Assembly (NCBI GenBank): GCA_013153845.1
Contig: JAADDS010000011.1
Coordinates: forward strand, 1-56,339
DNA length: 56,339 bases
Direction of reading: 5' to 3'
From: Methanococci archaeon
Lineage (GTDB): Archaea; AGJL01; Methanococci; Methanococcales; Methanocaldococcaceae
The stretch's first letter is position 1; every line of letters begins with the position of its first letter. The position numbers and the translations under genes are program-made. Positions 1 to 56,214 of the stretch are shown in pieces. The notes below the pieces were generated by a model. The model did not search any database and had not been told where the DNA came from. It worked only from the letters and a program-made list of their open reading frames with translations.

Positions 1-662
1 TAGAATCCGTAAGTAGTGTAAGTGTGCTCTGGAGCTCTTTCAAAAGAAAAGGTTCCATCTCCAAAACTCCACATACAAAATATTATATTTTTATTAGTTG
101 AAAAATTAAATCTAACTGTATCTCCTTCTACAATTTCATCTTTGCTAACATTTACAGTTATTGGTGTAGTATCTACCCTCAAACCGTAAAAATTAACGTT
201 GATTGGTGTTGCAGAGTAGTATTTTATTATGACAGTATTACTGCTACTGTTATATGAAACATCCCAGTTTGTTTTTGAATTCGAAGAACTACCATTAAAT
301 ATATACGTAGTTCCAGAAACATTTCCTACAATAATCCAGTTATAAGTTAATGACTTTGGATAGAACGTATTATTTAGATAACCACACCATGCTACTGGAT
401 AAGGAAAAGGGAAATCATAGGTGTGAGTTATTGAGACGGGGGCGTTATAATCTGTTTCAGTTAGATCTCCAAAATCCCATTTTATATGCCCATTGGTTAA
501 GATTTCATTTGAAAGTGTATCAAACCCTAACGCAGTAAATTTAAATGTAAAATTCCCTTCTTGTGTTATATTCATCGCATTGGGGTGGATGTAGATCTCT
601 CCATTGATCTTACACATAAATCCTATTAAAATAAGGAAGAGTAGTATCCTAATGAGTTTCAT
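1..662 (-). CDS. Secreted PKD-domain surface protein (C-terminus beyond window edge)
   Basis: This minus-strand reading frame starts with ATG at 662 behind a GGTGAGG ribosome binding site and stays open to the window edge, so only the first ~220 residues are present. The N-terminus ([21 protein letters not shown]) is a Sec-type signal peptide. The body holds two PKD-like beta-sandwich signatures: a [21 protein letters not shown] stretch near residues 60-80, and [21 protein letters not shown] at the truncated end. Asn-rich NxS/T sequons suggest an N-glycosylated extracellular protein. PKD domains usually mediate protein-protein or polysaccharide contacts on archaeal surfaces. It lies next to pilin-like genes and may share their surface role. 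The exact function is unknown. Confidence 0.8.
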
Positions 663-741
663 AAATCCTCACCATTTCGTATATTGATAAAATATATAAC
701 TGCTTTTTTTAATTGTCTGTCAGATTATCTTTTTACTTGAT

Positions 742-1188
742 TTATTTTATATTTATTAACGTGTTTTTTGATAATGTAATGTTATTTTTACCAACATTTG
801 CAATTAATTCAATTTTATTACCTACATCAACACTTGTGTTTACTACATCTCTTCCTTCTATTTTAACTCCATCCTTCTCTGGGTAGAAGATCACATACGT
901 CTCTCGGGAAACATTTATCAGTTTAGTGGAAGCCCTTATAGTATAAGATATGTCTCCAACGGGCTTTAAAGTTAGCAAGAGAGTTTCATTCTCCGAATAG
1001 GATAGCATTGCATAGTTTTCAAAAGTATCTACAACAGCGTAGAGTTTATTTGCAATTATTGCATTGGTTGAGTCGCTTGTAAATGTTAACTCACTTTCAT
1101 ATAGGAATAGAGAAACAATCATCAAGAACATGAAAGCCAATATAAAATCAACAGAGATCTGTCCTTTTTTTCTTTTGATGAGATACAT
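742..1188 (-). CDS. Class III signal peptide (type IV pilin-like) protein, QxSxD variant
   Basis: A 148-residue protein with a short basic leader (MYLIKRKKG), then QISVDF and a hydrophobic helix FILAFMFLMIVSLFLY. This is the layout of an archaeal type IV pilin-like precursor cut after the Gly by an EppA/PibD-type prepilin peptidase. The +5 position of the mature form is Asp where most methanogen members have Glu (QxSxE). The remaining ~115 residues are predicted beta-rich and extracellular. The ATG at 1188 is preceded by GGTGTG. It is divergent from the two larger class III proteins starting at 1514 and 2468. A minor pilin or membrane-anchored surface protein is likely; no specific function can be named. 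Confidence 0.75.
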   Translation of the reverse strand: MYLIKRKKGQISVDFILAFMFLMIVSLFLYESELTFTSDSTNAIIANKLYAVVDTFENYAMLSYSENETLLLTLKPVGDISYTIRASTKLINVSRETYVIFYPEKDGVKIEGRDVVNTSVDVGNKIELIANVGKNNITLSKNTLINIK

Positions 1189-1513
1189 TTCTACACACCG
1201 CGGATTGAATGGTTATTTCTTCATATTTTGGCTATTTAACTATACTCATAAGATCTCTATCTCTCATTTTATATATCAATTTCTATATATTTATATTTTA
1301 TACATCTCAACATGATAACTCAAACTTAATTTTTACTTAATTTTATTTTAATTCTTAGTTAAGAGTTATTGGAGATTTCTATATTCCAACCTTTAAGATA
1401 GATGTTGTTTCTTTGTAGTTTATAGATAGTATAATAATTTATGAGTGTTAAAACATATAATTATTATTGTATTATTAAGCCCCAAATATTTATGCATATA
1501 TATTGGTGGAAAT
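1189..1513. other. AT-rich divergent intergenic region without a gene
   Basis: These 325 bases separate two divergent class III signal peptide genes. The stretch is very AT-rich and has several TATA-like runs, for example around 1270-1300 (usable on the minus strand) and around 1486-1502 (plus strand). I see no coding frame, guide RNA boxes or clear hairpin. An in-frame GTG at 1445 would extend the downstream gene, but it lacks a ribosome binding site. Confidence 0.5.
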
Positions 1514-2362
1514 ATGAGAAAAGCTCAGCTATCTTTGGAATTAATCTTACTGATCTTTGGAATAATCGTTTCAGGAATAGTGATTTCCTATTATTTAATA
1601 GATGTTTCCAATAAACAGCAAGATCTTGGAGATACCACACAACATACAAAACAAATAACTTACAATTTATTTGGATCAATAAATGGAACTAACAAAACCA
1701 CATCTCCGCCCTCCTCAATCACAAACAGCAGTGAAAATACAAGTGAATCAACAACATCTAACGAAACCGAGGGTTATGCAAAAATAACTTTTGTTGGTGA
1801 ATCACAACCATCAACAGAATACACCACCTATGATGGAATTGGTTATACACCAAATTTAAACGTAATAATTAGTGGAAGAAGAACTGTTGTAATAAGGCCA
1901 AAAGGAAGCCCTAATGAAGAATATATACTCTACCCAATAAATGGAACGCTCACTTATTCAAACATTGAATTTTGGGCTCAGGGAAATCATATATTGAATA
2001 TTTATAATGTAAAGGAGGTTCCAAGTGATTTATACGTTGATTTTATTATAAAAGGAGCTCCTATTCCTCAAATCATACTATTAAAAGATGTAAAAATTGC
2101 TGGAGGAGTTAGTGTAGATTTTGAGATATATGGCGGAGGAAATAAGACAGATGCAGAGGTTGATATAGTTAACACAACAATAAATAGTTTAGATTTAAAC
2201 AATATAAGAAGAACTTCTGGAACTATCTACATAAATATTGAGGGGAGTAATATATCAAACCTGAATGAAGATTACAGGGGAAGAAATACCATATATTTAA
2301 CTATTTCGAATAGTTGGATCGACGGAAAGTATATTTCACACTATACTAAAAAGATTGAATAA
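1514..2362 (+). CDS. Class III signal peptide surface protein (DUF361-type, pilin-like)
   Basis: The ATG at 1514 follows GGTGG at 1505 and gives a 282-residue protein beginning MRKAQLSLELILLIFG. This is a canonical QxSxE class III signal peptide for the prepilin peptidase EppA, with a ~25-residue hydrophobic helix. An in-frame GTG 23 codons earlier would put a second hydrophobic stretch in front of the leader and is rejected. Residues ~55-85 form a Ser/Thr/Asn-rich linker with many NxS/T sequons. The rest is beta-rich and ends in loosely repeated 20-23-residue units (around RTSGTIYINIEGSNISNLN and RNTIYLTISNSWIDGKYIS), suggesting a small beta-solenoid. The tail resembles that of the next gene, so the two are probably paralogues. 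A pilus subunit, tip protein or adhesin is inferred. Confidence 0.8.
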   Translation: MRKAQLSLELILLIFGIIVSGIVISYYLIDVSNKQQDLGDTTQHTKQITYNLFGSINGTNKTTSPPSSITNSSENTSESTTSNETEGYAKITFVGESQPSTEYTTYDGIGYTPNLNVIISGRRTVVIRPKGSPNEEYILYPINGTLTYSNIEFWAQGNHILNIYNVKEVPSDLYVDFIIKGAPIPQIILLKDVKIAGGVSVDFEIYGGGNKTDAEVDIVNTTINSLDLNNIRRTSGTIYINIEGSNISNLNEDYRGRNTIYLTISNSWIDGKYISHYTKKIE

Positions 2363-2393
2363 TTCCACTTTTTATAAATTATCTCGAATTTCG

Positions 2394-2412
2394 TGGAAAA
2401 AGGTATATATAT
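2394..2412 (+). promoter_or_regulatory. Probable TATA/BRE promoter for the 2468 gene
   Basis: An A-rich BRE-like run followed by GGTATATATATT lies ~55-70 bases before the start codon at 2468. A very similar AAAGGTATATATAA sits before the 4203 gene. Just upstream, TTCCAC (2373) and GTGGAA (2392) form inverted repeats that could make a hairpin ending the preceding gene. Confidence 0.5.
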
Positions 2413-2467
2413 TGGTTAGGATATATATAACAATATGGGTAATGTCTAACAAAGGGGGTGATAGGTT

Positions 2468-4009
2468 ATGCCCATCCTTAAAAAAAGAGGTCAACTTTCT
2501 TTAGAGTTTGTATTACTACTTTTTGGAGTTATTGTAGCAGGAACTTTCGTAGCTGTAAATTTAGCTGATCAAAATCCTGCTTATCTTGGAGATAGTGCAT
2601 CAAAGATTAAAAAAGAATCATTAGGTTTATTTATCGGAAAAGGTGTGAATTTTAGCTCAACAACTACTGTAAACAGTTCGGGATATGATAAAAATAGCAG
2701 CTCAAATATAACAACAAATATAACAATAAACGAAACTGAAAACATAACAACTGAAATAAATAATAGCATAACTAACGATACAAGTCAGAATATAAGCACA
2801 GATAATAATACAAATGAAAACCTAACAACAAACGAAACCATTAAACTTCCAAACTTATTCATAGAAAACTTATCTGTGGTAGAGAACGGTAGCGTGATCG
2901 CCTGCCATTGCTTCAGAGAACGAGTTCAAAATAATGGAGAAGACACAAACTTACAAAACCGATTCCAACACAGATGCGGAAAATGTAAAAATGGAACAAA
3001 TGTGGATATAGTGGCAGTTATTGGAAATAACGGAACAGCAAACTGCAATTCGTTCCAAGTGGTAATGTATGACAATGATGTTCAAATATATAACAACACT
3101 TTCCAAAACCTTAATGTTAATGAGACCCTAACAATAACTGTTCCATATGAAATATCCACATCAAAAGGTTGCAAACATCAAAATAAAGGAGAAAGTCAGC
3201 AAAACCAATATAGAGGATGCTGTTGCGAGAGAGTATTTAACCACACAATTACTGTAAAGGTTATTGCAACCAACGATTCAAATCCAGATGATAACTCAGC
3301 AAGCGTTGTAATATCAATAGAGAAAGAAAATGGATGTAATAATTGTAATGGTAAAGATAATGAAAATACTACTATAAATAATACATCAACAAACATTGCC
3401 AGCGAAGGAAGTGTTGCTGATTATTTATATATAAAATTCAATGGAAATAGTAATGGAATCATAACCTCTGATATAATTCCAGATGGACAGCCAATATTCG
3501 GAGATTTTGGAACTATTAGAATTAAAGGAAAACATGTTGGTAAATATAATGCAAATGGCGAAATATCTGGAAAAATAATAATAAATGGAAATGGACTACT
3601 TTACTTAGGAAATTTAAGCACAATATATAAACTTGAATTAAAACTCAATGGAAACTCAGATAATGATGTTGATTATACACTAAAAGTTCCAGAAATTGTA
3701 TATTTAGATGCCGGAGTTATAAATGGTAATGCAGAACTTAACTTAGATGGTATAACTATCGATAGCATGTATGTAGAAAGAGTTAACGGTAATGCAAACT
3801 TAGACCTATCAAATGGCCATATAACAGTTTTAGAAATCGACAAAATAAACAGTAATGCAAATGTAAAAATTGAAAATATGAAGATTGACGATCTTAGTAT
3901 TGAAAAAATAATGGGAAGTGGAGAGGTTATTATAACAAACTCTGAAATAAATGGGATATATTACAACTACTTAAAGATAGACAAATACAATTACGAAGAT
4001 TGGAGCTAA
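2468..4009 (+). CDS. Large class III signal peptide protein: glycosylated linker, Cys-rich CARDB-like domain, beta-solenoid tail
   Basis: A 513-residue pilin-like precursor whose ATG follows GGGGGTGAT. Residues 1-8 are the basic leader, and QLSLEFVLLLFGVIVAGTF at 9-27 is the QxSxE site plus hydrophobic helix. Residues ~60-125 are an Asn/Thr/Ser linker packed with NxS/T sequons. Residues ~128-285 resemble a CARDB beta-sandwich (IVAVIGNNGTANCNSFQVV, NDSNPDDNSASVVISI), but with unusual cysteine-bearing inserts. The eleven cysteines are at 146, 148, 170, 173, 193, 235, 251-253, 290 and 293, including CxC, two CxxC and a CCC. Residues ~320-500 hold 20-22-residue repeats (VNGNANLDLSNGHITVLEI and similar), fitting a beta-solenoid. 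The mature protein should be extracellular. The cysteines could form disulfides or bind metal; no heme CxxCH motif is present. Confidence 0.8.
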   Translation: MPILKKRGQLSLEFVLLLFGVIVAGTFVAVNLADQNPAYLGDSASKIKKESLGLFIGKGVNFSSTTTVNSSGYDKNSSSNITTNITINETENITTEINNSITNDTSQNISTDNNTNENLTTNETIKLPNLFIENLSVVENGSVIACHCFRERVQNNGEDTNLQNRFQHRCGKCKNGTNVDIVAVIGNNGTANCNSFQVVMYDNDVQIYNNTFQNLNVNETLTITVPYEISTSKGCKHQNKGESQQNQYRGCCCERVFNHTITVKVIATNDSNPDDNSASVVISIEKENGCNNCNGKDNENTTINNTSTNIASEGSVADYLYIKFNGNSNGIITSDIIPDGQPIFGDFGTIRIKGKHVGKYNANGEISGKIIINGNGLLYLGNLSTIYKLELKLNGNSDNDVDYTLKVPEIVYLDAGVINGNAELNLDGITIDSMYVERVNGNANLDLSNGHITVLEIDKINSNANVKIENMKIDDLSIEKIMGSGEVIITNSEINGIYYNYLKIDKYNYEDWS

Positions 4010-4070
4010 TAACCTCTCTATTTTTATTTTTTTATTAAGAGGGAGTATTAATATATATAAATTAACAGTT

Positions 4071-4086
4071 AGAAAGGTATATATAA
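4071..4086 (+). promoter_or_regulatory. Probable TATA/BRE promoter for the 4203 gene
   Basis: AGAAAGGTATATATAA repeats the arrangement seen before the 2468 gene. A transcript start ~25 bases downstream would leave a leader of about 90 bases. Confidence 0.45.
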
Positions 4087-4202
4087 TTTCTCTTTTCATA
4101 TATCTCTTATTATTTGATAATATTTGATTATTTTTTATTGTTGTTTTTTTATTATATGTTAAAAATATTCAAAATTTTTTGCGTAGATTAAAGGTGATCT
4201 AT

Positions 4203-5294
4203 ATGCGTGTTGGAATTATTGGAGCAGGTTTATCGGGATCTATCTTTTATAATCTAATGTCAAGTAATGGCTTCAATATCGATATATACGATCCATCATT
4301 AGCACGGGGGTGTAAAAGCGTAAATTTTATATTTTCAGATAAAAGGGACTTTTTAATTGTGAAAAAAGTATTAAAAGTGGCAAATTTGGATATAAACGAT
4401 TATATTGTTAAAGAAATAAAAAAGGTTAATGTTGATGGAGACAATTATCGTATATCTAAGAAGGTATTTGTGATTAATAAATTAAAATTAATAGAAGATT
4501 TAACACCAAGAACTGCAATCATAAACAGGGAATTCAACCCAGTTTTAAGGAGATTCACAACAAAAGTTATCGACAGTGGAGCTGTTGTTAAAGAATTCAC
4601 TACTGATGCCGAAACAAAATTTTATGATCTAATAGTCGATGCATCGGGTTGTGCAAAAGTTCTTCAAATGTCCAATGAGTCCCAGAAATACAAAAATGAC
4701 ATAAGAACTTGCCAGTTTTTAATATCTTGCAATGATAAAGATGGAGTGGATAAATTTTTTATCGATGAAATAAAAATACAGAAAGGAAAACCTATGATTG
4801 GCTATACTTGGGTAAATCCAATTGGAGATAATTTATATCACGTTGGATGTGCATACTATAAAAACGATTATGAGCTTTGGAATTACTTAACGAATTATGC
4901 AAAAAAGTTTTTTAGTGGAAAATGTAATCGAGTATGCAGCTGCACATCCAAAATAAATGGCAATCTAATATCTGAAAGTTTTATAGGAGGAGTTTATGAA
5001 AAAAGATGCTTAGTAGGGATAGGAGAGAGTATTGGTTTAACATCTCCAGTTGGTCAGGGAAATGTTTATGCAGTATACTCTGCATATATACTTTCAAAAC
5101 TATTAAAAAAATATGATGTCGATGAAGCAATTATTAAATACAAAAATCATATCATAAAAAACTTTTCCGAATTAGATACCTATAAAAAGTCCGTAAAAAA
5201 TTTTAACATATTAGGAATATCCAAATTTCTAAAAACACTTTATAATGTACCAACAACAAAATTTATGAAAATACTTATAAAATCAAAATTTTAA
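4203..5294 (+). CDS. FAD-dependent oxidoreductase, geranylgeranyl reductase-like
   Basis: The start is ATG 4203, behind AGGTGATCT, giving 363 residues; an earlier in-frame start has no such site. The N-terminus MRVGIIGAGLSG is a GxGxxG dinucleotide-binding fold. The segment VGIGESIGLTSPVGQGNVYAVYSAYILSKLL near residue 280 matches the second FAD-binding region of the geranylgeranyl reductase/p-hydroxybenzoate hydroxylase superfamily (usual form GDAAG..P..GEGI), with E in place of D. Such enzymes saturate isoprenoid chains in archaeal lipids, but this one is divergent and its substrate cannot be read. Cysteines at CNRVCSC are notable. It is 43 bases from the next gene and may be co-transcribed. 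Confidence 0.7.
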   Translation: MRVGIIGAGLSGSIFYNLMSSNGFNIDIYDPSLARGCKSVNFIFSDKRDFLIVKKVLKVANLDINDYIVKEIKKVNVDGDNYRISKKVFVINKLKLIEDLTPRTAIINREFNPVLRRFTTKVIDSGAVVKEFTTDAETKFYDLIVDASGCAKVLQMSNESQKYKNDIRTCQFLISCNDKDGVDKFFIDEIKIQKGKPMIGYTWVNPIGDNLYHVGCAYYKNDYELWNYLTNYAKKFFSGKCNRVCSCTSKINGNLISESFIGGVYEKRCLVGIGESIGLTSPVGQGNVYAVYSAYILSKLLKKYDVDEAIIKYKNHIIKNFSELDTYKKSVKNFNILGISKFLKTLYNVPTTKFMKILIKSKF

Positions 5295-5337
5295 ATAAAA
5301 TAAATTTAAAATATAAAATTAATAGGGAGGGATAATT

Positions 5338-5814
5338 TTGCCATTAAAATTGCTAAAAGAGGAAGAAGGATTATCTCCAATGCTTAGAGAATTTAGGAGT
5401 ATAGTTGATAAAGAGAGAATAAATAGTGTTGTATTTATTGGATCTGTTGGAGTTTGTCAGCCCTTTGCTGAATTGTTTTATTACGCTATAAGAGACAAAG
5501 ACGGATATTTTATTCCAAACGGGGATTTATCAAAAGTTAAAAAACTTATAGTTGATGATAGCGGAGTATCAATGAAAAAAATCAAAGAAATCCAAAATAC
5601 TGATGCGGTTGTATTGTTTGGGGGTTTAGCGATGCCGAGATATGGTGTTGATGTTGAAAAAATCAAAAACGTGCTTAATCTATTATCTCCGAAGTGTGTT
5701 ATTGGTATTTGTTTTATGAGCATATTCCAAAAGTCAGATTGGGATAAAAAAATAAACTTTGATTATCTTATAGATGGGTATATAAGAGCCAAAGTATATA
5801 CAAAAGAGAAATAA
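5338..5814 (+). CDS. DUF2124-like conserved archaeal protein
   Basis: A 158-residue protein starting at TTG 5338 behind a strong GGGAGGGAT site. The sequence (VVFIGSVGVCQPFAELFYYAIRD, DAVVLFGGLAMPRYG, CVIGICFMSIFQKSDW) has alternating strands and helices consistent with a Rossmann-like fold. I recognise it as a methanogen DUF2124-type protein. No catalytic function is established to my knowledge. Its stop codon adjoins the riboflavin synthase leader, and the two are almost certainly in one operon. There is no signal peptide or membrane helix. Confidence 0.65.
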   Translation: MPLKLLKEEEGLSPMLREFRSIVDKERINSVVFIGSVGVCQPFAELFYYAIRDKDGYFIPNGDLSKVKKLIVDDSGVSMKKIKEIQNTDAVVLFGGLAMPRYGVDVEKIKNVLNLLSPKCVIGICFMSIFQKSDWDKKINFDYLIDGYIRAKVYTKEK

Positions 5815-6297
<483 letters not shown>

Positions 6298-6305
6298 AAA
6301 ATTGC

Positions 6306-8171
6306 TTAAAGTTTCCAGTCAATATTTAAGAGATCTGAATATCTTTCAAGAACTCTTTTTACATATTCATCTACACATTCCCTATTTTCAAACTTTTTAG
6401 TCCAATATTCGTTATTAAATTCTTTTGCAAGAGCAATTATCAAATCTTTAACTCTTTCACTTTCTATTTTTGCAGGGTATCCAATTTTTTTATTATAATT
6501 GCAGATCTCTCCATATAACTTCACAGTTTCCTCAACAATATCCTCTATTCCTAAAAGTTCTCTAACTAAATCCTTTAAAACTGGCTTTAACCACTTTCTA
6601 TGGAATCTACAAATTCCAAGATTTTCTACCGTGAGTTCTAATTTTATACTATCAACAACTAAATCCGCTAATTTTTCAGGATCGTTAAATTCTGGCTTGT
6701 AGTATGTTAAATACCTCCCCTGAATTACAAATGGCATAAAAAATCCGGGAGTCCAGTAAAGGTTTGGAGCAATTTCTCCCCAGTCCCCAAATGGAACATA
6801 AACTGCCACATCATTAAATTTCTTTCCAATCTTAGCAGTTCTATTTTTAAATTTCTCGTTTAATATTTTTGAAGCTTTTCTCTTTCCAAGGGAGAGTATT
6901 TTATATAGTTCATTCGAGTTCTCTGCCAATTTGTACATAAATGCTATTGCCTGATCGGCGTTATGCTTCGCTATTTCTTTTATTTCCCCATTCTCCCCTT
7001 CTATAATTCTTTTATGATCAAAAATTGGCTTTTTTATACCAAGTTCCTCTTCATTCAGTAGTTGTAAATCCAATAGTTCAAAGATCCATGCAGTTAGATT
7101 TCCGATCTCGATCGCATCAAATCCGAGTGCATCTGCTGTTTTAACAACCCGATCTGCTTCATAAAGGTCAAAAATCCCCAATAAAGTTCCATTTGCCGAA
7201 TATGGTTCGTAATCCATTTTATTTTTATTCCTGTATTTTTTACACAAAACAGGACATGGCTCTCCACAGTTTGCCCATTTTTTTGGTTCTATTGCCTCTT
7301 TATTAAATGTTTCAAGATAAAATTTCAATATTTTTTCCAAAATTTTCTTTCTGTCCTCTACACTTATGTATGGCATCCTCCAATTGAATATTGGAACTTT
7401 TTCTTTATATAAAATCCAATTGTTCCCAAAAGTTCCCCCTGTCCCTGTTTTTTCATCATATCTGTATTTACTTGTATGTTCTAAAATCACTTTACTCATT
7501 GGCTTTTTATAATAGTTTTCCACGATTTCTTTTGCTTTATCTTTATCTTCCTTGTTCTCATCTTGATTTCCAAAAAATACGATTCCCATTATGTTATGTG
7601 CCCTATAAAGAACTGATCCTCCCCCTCCTCTCGCAGCCCAGTCCTCCGATCCTTCTACAAACTTTCCTCCCCTAACGGTCTGTGAAAACAATCCGCCCAT
7701 ATTCGTTCTTTTTGACGCCTCTCCAACAACTACGCTTCTTAGGTTTTTATCTTTAAAAAGGTTTAATATGTATTCACTAACATCATATACAGTTTTAAGT
7801 TCCTCCTTCACTTCTATAAAATCAATTCTCAAATTTTCTTCATTTTCTATAACCATTATTGATGGCTTTTCACATCTTCCAATGATCGCTACATTATTCA
7901 ACCCAGTGCTTTTAAATTGATAGCCAGCTCCTCCCATGGATGAGAAGTAAAATCCATCCCAAAGTGGAGATCTAAATGAAAATATCAATCTATGTCCCCC
8001 AACAACTGGAAGAACTCCACGTCCAAAACAAAAGACATTTTTTTCATCGTAAGGATCGTATTTCCACGTTTCAAATTTATTGTGCCAGTAAAGTCCCCAA
8101 CTTATGGGCAAAAAAGTTTTTTCTATAATTTCAAATTTTTTCGTTGTTGCGTTTATTAAAACATTTTTCAT
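6306..8171 (-). CDS. Tungsten aldehyde ferredoxin oxidoreductase family protein
   Basis: A 621-residue AOR-family enzyme, normally a tungstopterin and 4Fe-4S enzyme oxidising aldehydes to acids with ferredoxin. Residues 79-100 (MGGAGYQFKSTGLNNVAIIGRC) and 175-190 (EDWAARGGGGSVLYR) match the pterin-binding N-terminal domain. Cysteines 302, 306, 310 and 521 (CGEPCPVLC and GICRFHRKW) fit the Fe-S ligands, with CX3CX3C spacing as in formaldehyde-type members. Length is normal and no signal peptide is seen. The physiological aldehyde cannot be told from sequence. It is transcribed divergently from the tungstate-binding protein gene at 8352, which fits a tungsten cofactor. Start ATG 8171 follows GGGTTGTGA. 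Confidence 0.9.
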   Translation of the reverse strand: MKNVLINATTKKFEIIEKTFLPISWGLYWHNKFETWKYDPYDEKNVFCFGRGVLPVVGGHRLIFSFRSPLWDGFYFSSMGGAGYQFKSTGLNNVAIIGRCEKPSIMVIENEENLRIDFIEVKEELKTVYDVSEYILNLFKDKNLRSVVVGEASKRTNMGGLFSQTVRGGKFVEGSEDWAARGGGGSVLYRAHNIMGIVFFGNQDENKEDKDKAKEIVENYYKKPMSKVILEHTSKYRYDEKTGTGGTFGNNWILYKEKVPIFNWRMPYISVEDRKKILEKILKFYLETFNKEAIEPKKWANCGEPCPVLCKKYRNKNKMDYEPYSANGTLLGIFDLYEADRVVKTADALGFDAIEIGNLTAWIFELLDLQLLNEEELGIKKPIFDHKRIIEGENGEIKEIAKHNADQAIAFMYKLAENSNELYKILSLGKRKASKILNEKFKNRTAKIGKKFNDVAVYVPFGDWGEIAPNLYWTPGFFMPFVIQGRYLTYYKPEFNDPEKLADLVVDSIKLELTVENLGICRFHRKWLKPVLKDLVRELLGIEDIVEETVKLYGEICNYNKKIGYPAKIESERVKDLIIALAKEFNNEYWTKKFENRECVDEYVKRVLERYSDLLNIDWKL

Positions 8172-8274
8172 AGTTTCACAACCCTTTATTTTTTACTATT
8201 TTTTATATTGGGTTATTTTTTCATTTTTATAGCCCTAAATTTTATTTTTGAAGTTTTAGTATTTTATAAGTTTT

Positions 8275-8294
8275 GTTAACCAATAACGGTAAAC
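8275..8294. promoter_or_regulatory. Inverted repeat, candidate operator between AOR and wtpA
   Basis: GTTAACC-AATAAC-GGTAAAC is an imperfect dyad (six of seven positions per arm). It lies immediately upstream of the TATA-like TTTAAATAT that precedes wtpA and ~100 bases before the AOR start. Its position in the only shared intergenic region of a tungstoenzyme and a tungstate-uptake gene suggests an oxyanion-responsive regulator site. That role is inferred. Confidence 0.4.
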
Positions 8295-8295
8295 A

Positions 8296-8310
8296 TAATA
8301 TTTAAATATG
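8296..8310 (+). promoter_or_regulatory. TATA-like promoter of wtpA
   Basis: ATAATATTTAAATAT sits ~45 bases before the ATG at 8352, leaving room for transcription to start near 8330 and a short leader carrying GGAGGGA. Confidence 0.45.
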
Positions 8311-8333
8311 AAATCATAACACATTTCATCTGA

Positions 8334-9377
<1,044 letters not shown>

Positions 9378-9466
9378 ATTGTTTAAAATTGCTTATATTT
9401 TTTATTTTTCTGTTTTTTCTTTTTTATTTGTTATTTTATTTGTTATTCTTATCCATTTAAGAATCA

Positions 9467-12561: not shown

Positions 12562-12619
12562 GGCGTCAGTTCGCCCATCAATCATCACAGATCAGCAGCT
12601 ACTCCGTTCATCATCCGCC
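12562..12619 (-). ncRNA. C/D box guide sRNA (sRNA 1)
   Basis: Read on the minus strand: closing stem GGCG/CGCC, C box GATGATGA, guide ACGGAGTAGCTG, D' CTGA, C' TGATGA, guide TTGATGGGCGAA, D CTGA. All four boxes and a terminal stem are present in 58 bases, which is the textbook archaeal size. The D guide is complementary (12 positions, one G-U) to UUCGCCCAUUAA, a sequence I recall as conserved in archaeal 23S rRNA just after the A-loop. By the N+5 rule the C in UUCGC would be 2'-O-methylated. The D' target is unknown. Confidence 0.9.
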
Positions 12620-48562: not shown

Positions 48563-48619
48563 CGGCGATGATGACAATTTCGCTATCTGAACGATGATGA
48601 CTACTCCCGCAACTGAGCC
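48563..48619 (+). ncRNA. C/D box guide sRNA (sRNA 4), double guide
   Basis: Plus strand: stem GGC/GCC, C box GATGATGA (48567), guide CAATTTCGCTAT, D' CTGA (48587), C' GATGATGA (48593), guide CTACTCCCGCAA, D CTGA (48613), then a T-run terminator. Perfect boxes. From memory of archaeal 23S rRNA, the D' guide pairs with GUAGCGAAAUU and the D guide with UUGCGGGAGUAA a few tens of bases earlier. Both sites are thus in one conserved 23S region, which strongly supports the call. It lies 28 bases after the sufB/D stop. Confidence 0.93.
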
Positions 48620-55949: not shown

Positions 55950-56214
55950 GGCGGTATGGGGGCTATAGCCCGCCTTCTGTAATTTCGGTGGCATTCGGCT
56001 AAGCACCATCCGGCTTGCACCCCCGGCAGAGGAGACGCCCGTTTCACCGACTCTTCGGGAGTTCTCAACCTTTACAAGGTATCATCGTCATCTCTCCCGA
56101 AGCCGTGTCGTTTCTGTTGCGTCTCCCGCCCCTTCTCAGGGGACACTGCCGATAAACGGGGTGGGCGGAACTTCCTCCCCTTAAAAAGGGGACAGCCACC
56201 AGCCCCCTTACCGC
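55950..56214 (-). ncRNA. rnpB: RNase P RNA
   Basis: A 265-base GC-rich RNA on the minus strand. The ends pair as a long P1 helix (GGCGGUA/UACCGCC and AGGGGGCU/AGCCCCCA). Conserved elements are GGAAGUUCCGCCCACCCC near the 5' side (CR-I) and ACAGAAGGCGGGCUAUAGCC near the 3' end (CR-IV/V), with GGGCGUCUCCUCUGCCGGGGU in between. Together with its protein subunits it cleaves the 5' leaders of pre-tRNA. Size fits the reduced methanococcal (type M) form. Confidence 0.95.

Follow-up and report, generated by a model that had tools for sequence, protein, structure and literature searches.

A 513-amino-acid open reading frame of Methanocaldococcus, located at positions 2468 to 4009 (+ strand, ATG start) of the window, the whole 56,339-nucleotide stretch of DNA analysed, encodes a class III signal protein whose C-terminal tail differs from that of its closest relative by an exchange of DNA. 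The tail swap relative to the sister species (genome G013; the window genome is G000), with a fossil C-terminus left behind in G013, is the new observation here, the modular pilin design being already known. The protein is probably a minor pilin of modular build, belonging to an archaeal type IV-like pilus, with a likely location at or near the tip and an exchangeable module at its distal end that would act as an adhesin.

Class III signal and sequon-rich linker

The features of the gene, in order along the window, were as follows.

2454-2462, + strand: SD-like GGGGGTGAT upstream of the ATG (direct reading of the sequence)
2468-4009, + strand: probable modular class III (type IV-like) minor pilin, 513 amino acids (open reading frame; PF04021, E = 2.2e-6; family in 14/14 genus genomes)
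2468-2557, + strand: class III signal, predicted to be cleaved after Gly8, and pilin helix at the N-terminus (Pfam; homologue alignment)
2642-2845, + strand: 68-residue linker with 13 N-glycosylation sequons (shuffle test; AglB/STT3 gene in the genome)
2849-3322, + strand: CARDB beta-sandwich with two loop insertions (PF07705, E = 7.7e-12, in the homologous domain of G001; fold match to 3idu/2kl6)
2894-2995, + strand: insertion 1 of the CARDB core, at residues ~143-176, with C146, C148, C170, C173 and a conserved QNxG...LxN...H motif (alignment)
3167-3235, + strand: insertion 2 of the CARDB core, at residues ~234-256, rich in Q, N and H and containing C235 and C251-C253 (alignment)
3335-3346, + strand: CxxC (290-293) just after the CARDB domain, where relatives have His-containing sequences (GHGHG, GHGHHGHE) (alignment)
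3378-3988, + strand: swapped cassette, DNA unrelated to that of the sister though the flanks are 92-96% identical (blastn breakpoints 3377/3989; dS)
3416-3967, + strand: beta-solenoid tail with a period of 21 residues (autocorrelation; AlphaFold)

The PF04021 class III signal was matched with 27.9 bits against a Pfam cut-off of 23.7. Residues G8, Q9, L10, L12 and E13 were invariant in 12 aligned homologues, as were L17 and G25, and the invariant G8|Q9...E13 constitutes the prepilin cleavage motif of the family, with Glu at mature position 5. These results agreed with the initial annotation, which had called the protein pilin-like with a class III signal. An EppA-type prepilin peptidase (PF06819, 4.4e-33; PF01478, 9.6e-14) is encoded on contig C12 of the same genome. 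The 513-residue protein had no match to PIP-CTERM (TIGR04173), and its TIGR04205 score of 12.5 bits fell short of the cut-off (65).

Class III signals are present also on archaeal surface proteins outside pili. The protein could be such a surface protein and no filament subunit, either S-layer-associated or a cell-anchored binding protein, and the large ectodomain and the separation of gene and pilus cluster in four genomes would suit this. We consider this doubtful, as the Glu at mature position 5 and the pilin helix are conserved and the gene, in most genomes, keeps its synteny with those for pilin, ArtD and DUF2341.

The linker (residues 59-126) contained 13 NxS/T sequons compared to 6.0 +/- 1.7 in composition shuffles (p ~ 1e-4). 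Its sequon density therefore exceeds what its N/T/S-rich composition yields, which confirms the sequon-dense linker seen at the outset. An AglB/STT3 gene is present in the genome on contig C30.

The CARDB domain and its cysteines

The CARDB-like sandwich that had been proposed for the middle of the protein was recovered by homology and by fold. Pfam did not call PF07705 in the window protein itself; the call was made in the orthologous domain of G001, which is 47% identical. The AlphaFold model of the CARDB region matched the CARDB structures of PF1109 (3idu/2kl6) with a TM score normalised to the target of 0.66-0.69, with RhoGDI and other sandwiches equalling the CARDB structures by E-value against the same model. 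Overall the models, which were built on two-sequence alignments, were of low confidence (mean pLDDT 52 and 61). The CARDB core reached a pLDDT of 71-83 and the cysteine loops remained below 50, so the model is uninformative on loop geometry. A PDB sequence search with the CARDB domain and the tail returned nothing meaningful.

The eleven cysteines of the protein (146, 148, 170, 173, 193, 235, 251-253, 290 and 293), including the CxC, the two CxxC and the CCC clusters noted originally, were all present. They span ~170 residues, in which 2.5 would be expected from the cysteine frequency of the window (1.46%; binomial p = 5e-5). Ten lie inside the insertions or just past the CARDB domain, and C193 lies in the core. 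A homologous cysteine-containing CARDB domain was found in six genomes of the genus and in G022, from another family of the same order. Neither insertion occurred in the four plain CARDB domains of G011. Among the seven cysteine-containing domains, C173 was kept in six, C146 in five, and C235 and C252 in four, and C193, C253, C290 and C293 occurred only in the window genome and its sister. The number of cysteines per homologue across the 14 genus genomes was 11, 11, 10, 9, 6, 3, 3, 2, 2, 2, 1, 0, 0 and 0, one of the homologues with none being a protein truncated by a contig end; the complete set of 11 was shared with the sister species only. The better-kept feature of insertion 1 was the QNxG...L...H pattern. 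Judged from the alignment, the two C/H- and Q/N-rich loop insertions are retained more widely than the full cysteine set, and the cysteine clusters are not supported as a conserved feature of the family. The initial annotation had named cysteines that vary among homologues as the finding that would speak against it; they were kept between the closest relatives and lost genus-wide across the 14 genomes. An origin of the insertions as a DNA-level mobile element was rejected, as they lacked a strong hairpin and the significant matches of an insertion 1 query were only in this kind of protein.

Binding of transition metals (Zn, Fe, Cu, Ni) or of vent sulfide-mineral surfaces by the Cys/His loops, with the tail secondary, would fit 11 cysteines against 2.5 expected in a strict anaerobe. 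Cysteine and histidine also occur at the same places in relatives, with C290 replaced by His in G001 and G007 and C235 by His in G008, where the alignment is loose; the G007 domain holds 6 cysteines and 12 histidines, and the title of 3idu, a CARDB crystal structure that the model matched, names a di-metal complex. We nevertheless judge this explanation unlikely. Most cysteine positions vary or are lost, the loops of G022 contain one of the two cysteines of its domain, and loop-free plain CARDB domains serve in G011. The alignment of C and H within gapped low-complexity loops is weak evidence, and the metal site of 3idu may lie elsewhere than in equivalent loops. As a general explanation, a conserved metal site was rejected once the homologues were aligned.

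The cysteines may instead have no special chemistry and be paired in structural disulfides, either inside the domain or linking subunits, which would stabilise an extracellular protein of a hyperthermophile; this would be compatible with a minor pilin. Thermophilic archaeal proteins generally are documented to use disulfides (PMC3177088), and the cysteine pairs are located in two loops of one domain. This can be held only tentatively, because the odd cysteine counts (11, 7 and 3 in the domain, by species) leave at least one cysteine unpaired or intermolecular, and the adjacent cysteines of CCC are awkward for simple disulfides. The clusters caution against inferring chemistry before relatives are checked.

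Tail exchange and ectodomain turnover

The hydrophobic autocorrelation of the tail peaked at 21 and 42 residues, and AlphaFold modelled the tail as a beta-solenoid with pLDDT ~80-87 in the last coils, in agreement with the solenoid of 20-22-residue repeats described beforehand. Comparison of the tail structure to the PDB gave no significant match, the best being the tapirin adhesin domain 6n2b (E = 0.04, TM 0.3), and a library of viral structures gave no match at E <= 0.001. The tail resembles the tapirin C-terminal domain and bacterial solenoid adhesins in being a beta-solenoid, and no sequence relation to them was found. Pfam searches with nine tails yielded a single weak match each to DUF4097 and bactofilin, which were not used for classification.

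The window and G013 were 92% identical in DNA over positions 1-3377 (blastn), with ~97% inside the pilin gene that ran up to residue 303, and 96% identical over 3989-9396. Between these flanks, 611 bp of the window and ~696 bp of G013 did not align as recently shared sequence. Protein identity to G013 was 100% over the N-terminal 50 residues and 94% in the CARDB domain, compared to 37% in the tail. Likewise, dS was 0.08-0.11 in the shared part of the pilin gene and 0.08-0.36 in seven neighbouring genes, and rose to 1.24 in the tail. The G013 tail was 55% identical to that of G008 versus 37% to the window tail, and the N-termini and CARDB domains of G013 and G008 were 37% and 45% identical, respectively. 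Downstream, a geranylgeranyl-reductase-like gene (window 4203-5291) had a dS of 0.36 to the sister, exceeding the values of its neighbours by a factor of roughly two to four, and a separate recombination is possible there.

In G013, the stop codon of the pilin gene is followed immediately by TACAAAGATTGGAGCTAA (L028 8371-8394). Inspected by eye, this sequence encodes YKDWS-stop out of frame, and 17 of 18 bases agree with those that end the window gene (YEDWS-stop). The homologue of G004 ends in YKKWS. This fossil indicates that the window tail type is probably older at the locus and that G013 probably acquired a different tail, which brought its own stop codon. No tail copies beyond the gene itself were found in G000 (87% complete) or G013 (99%), so the donor of the G013 tail was probably another lineage. 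The same search argued against antigenic variation by silent cassettes of the pilS type. An assembly chimera is also unlikely to account for the difference in tails, as the reading frame is intact, the flanks are continuous on the 56-kb contig, and the fossil lies in the near-complete G013.

The swap is documented for one species pair and as one event, and ectodomain turnover across the genus points the same way. The pilin gene is a single-copy member of a family that was matched in all 14 Methanocaldococcus genomes; a further scan of contigs for homologues added two MAG loci only, both copies of genomes already in the set. Across the genus the prepilin N-terminus is conserved and the ectodomain is not. 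The ectodomain combined a cysteine-containing CARDB domain with a solenoid in G000, G013, G001, G007, G008 and G003, and consisted of a solenoid only in G004, G012, G005 and G006, of a PKD domain in G002, and of four plain CARDB domains without cysteine in G011 (PF07705, E = 1.1e-53); G009 and G010 had other kinds. Where the pilin gene adjoins gatE, GatE identity was 90-97% (75-76% with the divergent G012), compared to mostly 24-36% for the ectodomains, which were often of different kinds. The close pairs G001/G007 and G005/G006 were exceptions to this divergence. In G003, an A24 (preflagellin-type) peptidase gene lies ~3 kb from the pilin orthologue (L032 3678-4379).

A broader reading, to which we give less than even weight, is that recombination with other lineages exchanges the entire receptor-binding end of a pilus-tip locus, with the inserted Cys/His loops of a CARDB platform forming an additional metal- or mineral-binding surface in some species. 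Such replacement in Methanocaldococcus may be likened to PilY1 or tail-fibre module exchange and, if true, would be an archaeal case of tip-adhesin diversification driven by viruses or surfaces.

The locus and probable assignment as a minor pilin

Upstream of the pilin gene, the window contains three further genes for surface or pilin-like proteins.

3-662, - strand: PKD-repeat protein, N-terminal part (PKD match; its C-terminus on contig C21 is PIP-CTERM, TIGR04173, E = 3.3e-15)
742-1188, - strand: small pilin-like protein with the N-terminus GQISVDF, a syntenic neighbour in relatives (open reading frame and synteny; no Pfam match)
1514-2362, + strand: second class III protein with a sequon-rich linker and a solenoid-like C-terminus (PF04021, E = 2.1e-6; match to the pilin N-terminal region)

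The class III protein at 1514-2362 is likely a paralogue of the 513-residue pilin. In the same genome, contig C21 aligns colinearly to G013 at 94-97%, matching the region left of the window, and carries the remainder of the PKD/PIP-CTERM gene, a 72-residue class III pilin (TIGR04205), archaeosortase D and two DUF2341 proteins. C21 would thus adjoin the window, whose left edge appears to cut the PKD/PIP-CTERM gene. The archaeosortase D gene (TIGR04175, 2.5e-68; L079 1263-1766) lies beside the TIGR04205 pilin and the two DUF2341 genes. The check for adjacent secretion genes suggested at the outset thus points, by synteny through C21, to pilin, archaeosortase D, PIP-CTERM and DUF2341 genes next door. 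ArtD was found in 13 of 14 genus genomes, and the pilin gene was linked to artD in the window genome (judged by synteny through C21) and eight others and unlinked in G002, G003, G004 and G008. EppA and further class III proteins are encoded on C12, and assembly ATPases (T2SSE) and T2SSF/TadC-like proteins on C33 and C64. On C64, the type II/IV secretion ATPase (L067 7438-9537) has an internal intein domain and is followed by a T2SSF protein. RNAs in the window include an archaeal RNase P RNA (55954-56211) and the C/D-box RNAs sR39 (48564-48618) and sR2 (12564-12618).

This neighbourhood also bears on whether the protein is a DNA-uptake pilin of a competence pilus, like the type IV-like pilus for transformation in M. 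maripaludis. For transformation, M. maripaludis depends on artE, an archaeosortase homologue, and on a DUF2341 gene as well as on pilus genes (PMC10133366), and DUF2341 and archaeosortase D genes are present in the neighbouring cluster. This role is nonetheless very improbable: the archaeosortase is ArtD and not ArtE, the EppA locus is on a different contig (C12), and a rapidly exchanged ectodomain suits target binding better than DNA binding.

The protein can be compared to several known systems. The grafting of adhesive modules onto pilins is an established design in bacteria, with S. sanguinis PilB as the worked example, for which a tip location was proposed and adhesion was shown (PMC8179133). 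In the Methanocaldococcus protein, too, a pilin N-terminus is joined through a linker to a non-pilin module. Like the bacterial modular type IV pilins (Streptococcus sanguinis PilB/PilC, CofB and TcpB), the family has a short pilin N-terminus, a linker, a bulky non-pilin module and many architectures. It differs from them in its class III signal, in modules that are CARDB, PKD or solenoid, in a long, sequon-rich linker directly after the helix, and in the sister-species cassette swap. Among archaea, it resembles the minor pilins and DUF2341 proteins of clade 1 type IV pili from Methanococci (PMC4858521) as a non-major-pilin class III protein in genomes and loci with DUF2341 and EppA, whereas its gene lies outside the EppA and ATPase loci of its own genome. 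DUF2341 proteins have been proposed as PilY-like tip adhesins of these pili, and the terms CARDB, solenoid and PKD are absent from that paper (PMC4858521). Neighbouring genes belong to the archaeosortase D/PIP-CTERM system (TIGR04175, TIGR04173, TIGR04205), whereas the pilin itself is without PIP-CTERM and below the TIGR04205 cut-off, and its gene can sit elsewhere. Finally, the domain shares its fold with CARDB (PF07705; PF1109 structures 3idu and 2kl6) and homology through relatives, and departs from it in the two Cys/His- and Gln/Asn-rich loop insertions and the 11 cysteines.

A conserved filament end, a flexible glycosylatable linker and a changing outward end together lead to the modular minor pilin reading, from which we infer filament incorporation, tip position, adhesion, glycosylation and metal or disulfide chemistry. 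The prepilin peptidase would cut the class III signal after Gly8, and the helix at the N-terminus, in which Glu occupies mature position 5, would pack into the filament. The glycosylated flexible linker would keep the ectodomain at a distance from it. With its loops rich in Cys/His and Gln/Asn, the CARDB domain may serve as a spacer or binding platform stabilised via disulfides or bound metal, and the distal beta-solenoid would be an exchangeable adhesin module that touches the target. Counting against this reading are the location of the gene away from the ArtD cluster in four genomes, the tail being without a significant structural match, the low confidence of the overall models and the restriction of the swap to a single species pair. 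Of the specialised appendage tip envisaged in the initial annotation, a tip-type appendage protein that is modular and encoded at a pilus-related locus stands as the best reading, and the cysteines as its conserved feature do not. Sequence comparison suggests that the outer end is an attachment tip in rapid change and not a metal-binding device kept by conservation.

Archaeal minor pilins have been catalogued mostly by their signal peptides. A filament end that is kept, an outward cassette that is swapped and a fossil that can still be read show which part of the protein is pressed to change.
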